This document shows positions 28,309-30,406 of a stretch of DNA of 64,000 nt, one piece after another. Position numbers and translations under genes: made by a program. The notes below the pieces were generated by a model that did not search any database, was not told the origin of the DNA, and saw only the letters and a list, made by a program, of their open reading frames with translations. How positions within the stretch are numbered: the stretch's first letter is position 1; every line of letters starts with the position of its first letter. This DNA is from Aliarcobacter cryaerophilus ATCC 43158 (GTDB lineage: Bacteria > Campylobacterota > Campylobacteria > Campylobacterales > Arcobacteraceae). The stretch is taken from NCBI RefSeq assembly GCF_003660105.1, contig NZ_CP032823.1:372001-436000 (forward strand), read 5' to 3'.

Positions 28309-28335
28309 GAAAGAAAGTCTTAACTTCTAAAAAAA

Positions 28336-29619
28336 TTAGAATGTATAAGCAACTTGTAATCTTCCAGCATCTTGATCAATACTTTTTGCACCATCAAATT
28401 TTTGCTCAAAGTTACCATATCTTAAATATGTACTTAAGTTTTTAGACATTTTATATGTTAATTGTCCATAAACTTCTTGTTGTTTTAATTCATCACCTCT
28501 AGTTGTAACACTTCTAGCGTAAGCATGATTATTGAATGTTGTTTTACCAGCTTCAGTTTTATCAGCTTTTAAGTATCCATAGTGAGCTGTTAGGTTTAGG
28601 TTATCTAAAATATCAACACCTAAAGCACCTTGGAAATATTTAGCATCTGCTATACCATTTGAAGTAATGAACCATCCAAGAGATGTATTTTTTGCATCTT
28701 GATCAAGTGCAGTTAAACCACCATCTTTATCAGTCATAGTATATGCAAGTCTAGCATTAACGATAGAGAACTTACCATCAACAGCAAGTCTAATCATTGA
28801 GTTATCATCACTTGTTAAACCTGTGTCTTGTAATACTTTACTGTTTAATTGTAAATTTACATATCTAGCTTCTAAACCTAATTTTGCATTTTCTGCTAAA
28901 TCAAGATTTGAAGTAGCTGCTAAAGTGTATGAACCAAAAGTGTTTTGCATACCAGCATACCAAGCCTCAAGTTTAACAAAATCTAAATCACCTTGAACAG
29001 TAGCAACATACATGTCATTACCATTTTTTATAACTTCTTTGTGATCTACAGTAACACCACTTTTATTACTATTAAATGCACCATTTCCTGAATCATGTAA
29101 GTTAGTTGCATTGAAGTAACCAGCACCCGCAGTAATTGGCCCAAATGTTGAAAGAGCTAAAATACCAGTTCCAGTTTGCTCATTTCCATTGATATCAACA
29201 GCAACTGTATATGGAGTTGTTAAACCTTGTTTACCAATATTTACAACAGTATTTGGAATAGCAGTTAAACCAAAATATGCATTTGATAAAGTTACATCTG
29301 CTTGTGCATCACCAGTTTGATCTTTTTTAGAATCTAATTTTGCAAAATCAGCACTTTTTGAATCACCTACAATAAATCTTGAGTTAAATTTAACATAGTC
29401 ATTTACTTTTGAAGATAAGTTAAGACCTATTTTGTAGTTATTGTTTTCTGTTTGACCACCAGTTCTATTTAAACTATTATCATAGTTATTATATCTGTAA
29501 ACTACCGATCCAGATACATCTACACCTTTGATAGCTTCTTCTAATGGTTGAGCATTAGCAGTACTAAAACCAGCAACTGCAACAGCTGCTACTAAACTAA
29601 TTTTTGAGATTTTTCTCAT
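28336..29619 (-). CDS. major outer-membrane porin (Campylobacter MOMP/OprD-like)
   Basis: 427 residues. A typical Sec signal peptide ends at about residue 23 (VAGFSTANA, cut before QPLEE). The mature sequence is rich in alternating aromatic/polar beta strands and Gly/Asn/Asp loops, and ends in the outer-membrane signature AGRLQVAYTF with a terminal Phe. This is the porin type that dominates Arcobacter and Campylobacter outer membranes. AGGAG lies 9 bases before the ATG. A stable 5' hairpin and a strong terminator point to high expression. Confidence 0.92.
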   Translation of the reverse strand: MRKISKISLVAAVAVAGFSTANAQPLEEAIKGVDVSGSVVYRYNNYDNSLNRTGGQTENNNYKIGLNLSSKVNDYVKFNSRFIVGDSKSADFAKLDSKKDQTGDAQADVTLSNAYFGLTAIPNTVVNIGKQGLTTPYTVAVDINGNEQTGTGILALSTFGPITAGAGYFNATNLHDSGNGAFNSNKSGVTVDHKEVIKNGNDMYVATVQGDLDFVKLEAWYAGMQNTFGSYTLAATSNLDLAENAKLGLEARYVNLQLNSKVLQDTGLTSDDNSMIRLAVDGKFSIVNARLAYTMTDKDGGLTALDQDAKNTSLGWFITSNGIADAKYFQGALGVDILDNLNLTAHYGYLKADKTEAGKTTFNNHAYARSVTTRGDELKQQEVYGQLTYKMSKNLSTYLRYGNFEQKFDGAKSIDQDAGRLQVAYTF

Positions 29620-29833: not shown

Positions 29834-30406
29834 ATGAAAAAGAATAATATTATACTAATTGGTTTTATGGGTGTTGGAAAAGGAACTGTGGCAAGAGCTA
29901 TGGTAAAAGAGTTCGCAATGGTGGGTCTTGCGTCCCAATTCCCAGAAGAAGAAGAGGTGGGAGTAAAGTTCCATTTCCAGTATTCGATTGATACAGATGA
30001 TTTAATCGAAAGTATGGAAAATAGAGCTATAAAAAAGATTTTTAAATTTGATGGTGAGCAATATTTTAGAAATTTAGAAAAAAAGACGGCACTTTGGCTT
30101 GAAAAAAGTGTAGAAAATACAATTATTTCAACTGGTGGTGGTTTTTATCGTCAAGAAAATATTAAAAATATAGGAACTATAATCTATCTTAAGTCATCAT
30201 TTGATGGAATTTTAAAAAGAATAAAAAAAGCACCAAATGCAAAAAATAAACTAAAAAAACGACCACTTTTACAAAATAAAAAAGAGGCTATAAAACTTTA
30301 TAATACAAGAGTAAAAGAGTATGAAAAAGTTGCAGATATTATTGTTGATGTTGAAAACAGAGATTTAAAAGTTATAGTAAAAGAGATTTTAGGACAGATA
30401 AAATGA
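29834..30406 (+). CDS. aroK: shikimate kinase with an unusual in-frame insertion
   Basis: Phosphorylates shikimate in chorismate synthesis. 190 residues, longer than the usual 165-175. The P-loop is GFMGVGKGT, with Gly replacing the usual Ser after Lys16, as in adenylate kinases. The shikimate-binding DTDDLIESME, the TGGGFY loop and the lid region KKRPLLQ are present. Between the P-loop helix (ending near residue 27) and DTDD (residue 53) there are about 20 extra residues, including an EEEE run, coded by DNA markedly richer in G+C (29911-29990). The ATG at 29834 is preferred over an in-frame TTG at 29816. It overlaps hisD by 4 bases. Confidence 0.9.
   Translation: MKKNNIILIGFMGVGKGTVARAMVKEFAMVGLASQFPEEEEVGVKFHFQYSIDTDDLIESMENRAIKKIFKFDGEQYFRNLEKKTALWLEKSVENTIISTGGGFYRQENIKNIGTIIYLKSSFDGILKRIKKAPNAKNKLKKRPLLQNKKEAIKLYNTRVKEYEKVADIIVDVENRDLKVIVKEILGQIK

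Follow-up and report, generated by a model that had tools for sequence, protein, structure and literature searches.

The described systems closest to the element analysed here are the REP/REPIN elements with their RAYT transposases and the Rickettsia palindromic elements (RPEs). REP/REPIN elements share with the GGAA-tagged family presented below a short tag 5' of a hairpin, an arrangement in inverted pairs, dispersal and an association with a Y1 HuH transposase. They differ from it in the tag, which is GTAG/GTGG or CGTC in the available text of the papers on them (two other classes have atypical structures), and in that the carriers examined within the genus of the window's genome are without a cognate transposase. 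The presence of REPs in frame inside genes is a known phenomenon, since the available text of PMC3733652 reports REPs lying in frame within genes of several species, RPE-4 and RPE-6 of R. conorii included, and that of PMC6006769 reports in-frame REPs within tnpA_REP genes of subclass 2.4, and also GT[AG]G tags. RPEs, as described in the available text of PMC10969869, are palindromes of about 150 bp that lie in frame in unrelated genes and encode a recurring peptide; the family presented here has the same habit, whereas its intact pairs are mostly 50-60 nt long, the two being compared by description.

The window, which is the whole 64-kb stretch of DNA that was analysed, carries a shikimate kinase gene (aroK) whose 3' end overlaps the start of the next ORF (30403). 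A preliminary description of the window had proposed that this gene contains an in-frame insertion of about 20 residues, including EEEE, with a higher G+C content than its surroundings. Both observations hold: alignment of 30 AroK loci delimits an insert of 20 residues (Table 1), and a recount of 29911-29990 again gave 38 G+C in 80 nt against the roughly 27% given for the surroundings (the mean of the window is 26.8%). Counts of at least 38 occur in 0.14% of the overlapping 80-bp windows across the 64 kb. The two nested inverted repeats described earlier correspond to two palindromic units, both degenerate 16-mers, and the pair TCCCA...TGGGA arises where the first unit ends and the second begins. 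Watson-Crick pairs are retained at 5 of the 8 stem positions of the first unit, plus one T-G, and several stem pairs of the second unit are gone.

Table 1. Positions of the aroK gene in the window and of the parts of its insert.
Feature	Position	Strand	Basis
aroK, shikimate kinase gene hosting the insert	29834..30406	+	open frame; PF01202 E 6e-25
60-nt in-frame insert, AroK residues 30-49	29921..29980	+	missing in 28/30 aligned AroK loci
First decayed REP unit, hairpin 29922-29937 then ATTCC	29922..29942	+	2 mismatches from TGGGACTNNAGTCCCA
Purine-rich linker CAGAAGAAGAAGAGG (15 nt), encodes the EEEE stretch	29943..29957	+	sequence and alignment with L006
Second decayed REP unit, hairpin 29958-29973 then TTTCC	29958..29978	+	2 mismatches from TGGGACTNNAGTCCCA

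Taken alone, the two 16-mers of the insert are weak evidence. At up to three mismatches TGGGACTNNAGTCCCA has 2 matches in the window versus 0.45 expected, and 8 of 100 shuffles also reach two; RNA folding of 29905-29995 gave a z of -0.99, with 36 of 200 shuffles folding equally well. These values and the GAA-rich linker speak for an ordinary fast-evolving or slipped AroK loop with accidental inverted repeats. That reading becomes barely credible when the other AroK loci are considered, 28 of which have no loop at all at this place, while the remaining one, L006, has GGGACTNNAGTCCC in exact form three times at the same junction, along with one further palindrome of similar make-up. The window 16-mers rise above chance because all four palindromes of L006 are perfect over GGGA..TCCC. 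An AroK alignment had been suggested earlier as a way to find strains without the loop. For this alignment, AroK was searched in 31 genomes of the genus and found in 30 (G017, 54% complete, being the one without), and additional residues separate M29 from the following Y in two of the 30 loci, namely 20 residues in the window and 52 residues (156 nt) in L006, which belongs to Arcobacter cryaerophilus gv. crypticus LMG 9065 (G008).

The L006 insert is made up of tandem and nested palindromes of the form TGGGACT-NN-AGTCCCA, tagged GGAA/TTCC. It starts with TGGGACTAAAGTCCCA-CTTCC, continues with a complete inverted pair, GGAA-ATGGGACTTTAGTCCCAT-spacer-CTGGGACTGAAGTCCCAG-TTCC, and ends with TGGGAATAAATTCCCA-CTTCC. 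The first unit of the window aligns with the first L006 unit, the linker occupies the place of the complete inverted pair and the second unit has its counterpart in the last L006 unit, so that the window evidently keeps decayed counterparts of the outer L006 units. The inner pair may have been lost by the window or gained by L006, and the purine-rich linker common to both fits either course. The AroK of G007 is at least as similar to that of the window, yet has no insert; common descent of both aroK inserts, loss in G007 and transfer are each a history that may apply. Because the window copy is too decayed for the covariance model described below (no row in the window at E≤0.05), its identity is taken from L006.

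Relatives of the L006 units form a family. Its intact unit is a GGAA tag with an 8-bp hairpin behind it, and an intact pair consists of GGAA, an 8-bp hairpin, an AT-rich spacer, a second 8-bp hairpin and TTCC. Of 85 different GGAA hairpin units collected in the genus, 77 have T at -2 and 77 have C directly behind the hairpin. The T at -2 agrees with a prediction, made by analogy with the GTAG guide rule of PMC8266576, that a transposase would cut at a TT or TY step close to the tag. Exact GGGACTNNAGTCCC occurs in 6 of the 31 genus genomes (10 times in G028, 9 in G008, 3 in G030 and once each in G015, G024 and G026), and the reversed pattern, used as a control, in none of the 31. Twelve inverted pairs were listed; in one of them (61 nt, in the aroK of L062) the partner of the unit is unrelated gene sequence. 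A covariance model was built from nine aligned inverted pairs, in which 98.6% of the stem cells are paired and 9 of the 16 pairs show changes on both sides, the nine having been chosen for pairing. The model has matches in 15 of the 31 genus genomes at E≤0.1 and, at E≤1e-5, in 49 of 398 genomes and 21 of 87 genera of the order. The family is dispersed, with places on many contigs of G008 and G028, and it combines inverted pairs with a hairpin that has a fixed tetranucleotide at its foot, as REPs and REPINs do, the units of the window being decayed in this respect. Neither of the known REP tags (GT[AG]G or CGTC) is found in the family. We therefore file it as REP-like with a new tag, GGAA.

A search for dispersed copies had been proposed as well, and its outcome is divided. 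There is no close second copy of 29911-29990 in the window's genome (G000; best non-self match 30 bits), and in phage and plasmid records relatives of the insert were limited to weak matches (best E 5 and 0.4). Diverged members do exist, two of them elsewhere in G000, where the covariance model locates the family in galE and in a restriction-modification gene of type ISP. The exact GGGACTNNAGTCCC core is absent from that genome. In other parts of the genus, additional small repeats were observed near members of the family. Short tandem repeats of the form GGACTTTGGAAAGTTTGGAAATG lead up to the REPIN of L060 (G008 C54, near 85.7 kb), and in G030 (L057/L079) a REP stem is split by sequence resembling TCAAAGAGAGTGCTT..GCACAAGA. 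A similar stretch lies near the transposase of G122 (L317), and it is possibly another small mobile repeat.

To describe copies inside protein genes, 61 places in the genus were hand-picked from 143 rows of the covariance model, with strands merged and with hits that overlap others omitted, together with most of those weaker than about 1e-3; the weak hits of G003, G004 and G025 are absent since the loci were chosen from an earlier genus search at E≤0.1. With at least 50 residues of open frame required on both sides, 21 of the 61 places are in-gene copies, at eight sites in seven genes, and terminal or short-ORF cases (e.g., L147, L148, L131:4701 and L146:2030) fall outside the 21. The copies lie in aroK (G008), galE (G000, G015 and G005), what we take to be an rfbB-like gene (G028, G026, G008 and G030), manC (G008 and G024; the G008 protein scores over the TIGR01479 cut-off), the type ISP gene (G008 and G000; PF18135 for the G000 protein) and an Eco57I-type gene (PF07669 for the G008 protein) at one site in G008, G007 and G014 and at another in G008, G015, G007, G027 and G028. 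The last copy is in a 773-residue protein of G028 that has no Pfam match and is presumably FliK-like. The 773-aa ORF (L156, G028 C54:34500-38500) encodes three REP-half peptides, PIGTGITIPAN, PIGTATSVPTN and PIGTGTLVPAN, as if REP units had multiplied within it. Sites with and without the element could be compared directly in two further genes. For galE, 10 of 14 aligned orthologues are without the element, three have a full element and G028 has half of one; a loop in the galE of G001 could be a relic (L263, which is broken by stops, and the distant L264-L266 were excluded from the alignment). For rfbB, 26 of 30 loci are without the element, as counted in a second alignment that was used because the first rfbB pattern missed 15 loci.

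The in-gene copies show a strong bias in reading phase. GGA, or a decayed form of it, is read as a codon in 20 of the 21 copies, and the length delimited by the model is 2 mod 3 in 20 of 21, the rfbB copy of G008 being the sole exception to both. In 17 hand-picked copies outside long genes the phases are open in 10, 11 and 14, and only 5 have a length of 2 mod 3, which indicates that stop codons alone fail to explain the phase. With 10/35, the chance of the phase at eight sites is about 4e-5 by our own arithmetic, a rough value because related genomes share sites. The outer aroK units, the sole ones left in the window, are read in a phase other than that of the 20 typical copies.

Stems were compared across genomes at six shared gene sites, using the left hairpin of each of 19 copies. 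Among differing stem pairs, 47 were changed on both sides, 6 were changed on one side and 9 had lost pairing in one copy, in comparisons that are non-independent and biased towards paired stems, the copies having been detected with a structure model. Paired changes of this sort would be expected from any of three processes: template switching, replacement by a different copy, or independent insertions at a preferred site. The stems of G000 are damaged, with 6 of 8 pairs left in galE and 7 of 8 in the type ISP gene, and the aroK units are damaged too; full pairing is seen in 15 of the 17 copies from other genomes.

Y1 transposases (PF01797) were detected in 6 of the 31 genus genomes and in none of G000, G008 and G028. 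The seven loci of these transposases were considered as a source of the mover and rejected: they have neither a GGAA hairpin (rule-based) nor a model match at E≤0.1, and they fall outside the cognate subfamily (A3) found elsewhere in the order, three scoring 28-41 bits versus at least 177 and four having no match. As the transposase of the A3 subfamily was not found in the 31 genomes of the genus, the link between the family and A3 is by relatives only. This RAYT subfamily (motifs LPHIDxxGYYQF..., MPNH[IVL]H... and YI[KEQ]NN[PA]) adjoins GGAA REPINs elsewhere in the order. It was first noticed in ten genomes picked for holding REPINs, and its profile was then run over the 398 order genomes, which were not picked for REPINs. 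At E≤1e-15, 33 genomes match; 22 of them, at E≤6.3e-34, represent the subfamily, and the remaining 11 (1e-16 to 1e-18) a longer class. Fourteen of the 22 subfamily carriers also belong to the 49 REPIN genomes (p 4.6e-9 in a one-sided Fisher test, the genomes being related), and REPIN matches at E≤0.01 lie within loci of about 3 kb in 16 of 22 cases for the subfamily versus 0 of 8 for the longer class. Six subfamily loci are without a model match. Four of these (L308, L313, L315 and L317), viewed by eye in a set that leaves aside L309 and L318, show GGAA-tagged inverted repeats with different stems, and G122, which belongs to the same taxonomic family as the window's genome, is among them. Two subfamily proteins pass the PF01797 cut-off and reach 60.7 and 68.1 bits, below the cut-off of 80, with NCBIfam NF047646 (REP-associated transposase). 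NH[IFV]H and YIxNNP of TnpA_REP subclass 2.4, as given in the available text of PMC6006769, resemble MPNH[IVL]H and YI[KEQ]NN[PA] of A3; the subclass differs in having WQ, present in 1 of 9 A3 sequences, and GT[AG]G-tagged REPs. The transposase genes of L234 and L235 encode in-frame REP-like peptides at their ends, e.g., GEAKASLP, similar to the in-frame REPs that the same text describes for subclass 2.4.

Paired inverted hairpins would also fit a miniature element (MITE) of an IS200/IS605-type or other DNA transposon instead of a RAYT-moved REP. One IS200-like locus, L205, and L215 do hold a REPIN match, and CTAAGAG on both sides of a REP array of G007 could be a target duplication. This array lies in the interval between the porin gene and coaX, which is occupied in G007 and G008 and is without an array in the window (28310-28345). 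The flanks at this site have drifted too far for a target-site duplication to be judged, and no target-site signature was established for the family. We consider a MITE improbable, in view of the concentration of REPIN matches at one RAYT-like subfamily, and not at the other Y1 classes sampled, and of single units, which are common in the family.

The effect of the insert on the enzyme was addressed with an AlphaFold2 model of the window AroK based on 12 sequences. Mean pLDDT was 85.8. The one stretch below 50 falls within the insert (model residues 31-43, protein 32-44), and regular structure is lacking from residue 33 to residue 49 of the model. The model agrees with a flexible loop but is no proof of activity; the insert is apparently tolerated as a loop and would be harmless. 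The proposal that a small palindromic element was inserted in frame and tolerated as a loop is supported by the 28 of 30 loci without it, by its dispersed relatives and by its predicted lack of structure. The accompanying likeness to RPEs was right in kind, with similar behaviour, but the element is of a REP/REPIN-like kind whose RAYT partner occurs in other parts of the order. A strict RPE, as a true member of that family, is very improbable: the shared habit speaks for it, since GGAA copies do lie in frame in unrelated genes, and the two kinds may overlap, given that RPE-4 and RPE-6 are filed among REPs in the available text of PMC3733652, but the units described here carry the GGAA tag and adjoin the RAYT subfamily in other Campylobacterota.

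We conclude that the aroK insert is very probably the remnant of a decayed mobile palindrome of the REP/REPIN type, lodged in the turn that links the P-loop helix to the strand preceding the DTDD motif. A RAYT-type Y1 HuH transposase would act on single-stranded hairpins with the GGAA tag as a guide, and would move or copy them. The units are usually paired head-to-head across a short AT-rich spacer. Insertions that leave the reading frame intact and land in surface turns would survive in genes; the order of events in aroK is likewise inferred. In G000 the element appears to be a fossil because no Y1 transposase was found there and the copies are losing pairing, and the family looks dead in that genome because, besides the lack of a detected Y1 transposase, there is no exact core palindrome. 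The aroK fossil would persist since the enzyme tolerates the loop. A broader proposal, which we regard as evenly poised between right and wrong, is that GGAA-tagged REPs constitute another large class of REPs, with a RAYT subfamily of its own, across the Campylobacterota. Under this proposal the Aliarcobacter copies colonise protein genes in one phase and encode loops of the type (F/L/I)-G-(T/N)-x-T-L-V-P ... G-T-E-V-P-x-P, and the in-gene palindromes undergo repeated renewal through replacement or template switching, with the result that stems at a given site change in pairs.

GGAA does not occur in the available main text, figures and supplements aside, of PMC3733652, PMC6006769, PMC2817692 and PMC8266576, and the literature searched, which was mostly outside subscription journals, yielded no account of the GGAA tag, of the transposase subfamily that goes with it or of the set of Aliarcobacter genes. 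The tag, its Campylobacterota partner and the phase bias thus appear to be new. The case combines several genes, occupied and empty sites, a sister copy in better condition and a transposase subfamily linked to the element. Three questions become testable: whether RAYTs guided by GGAA move these units, why one reading phase prevails, and whether copying from unit to unit renews hairpins inside genes. With it, the Campylobacterota join the bacteria whose mobile palindromes write peptide loops into enzymes.
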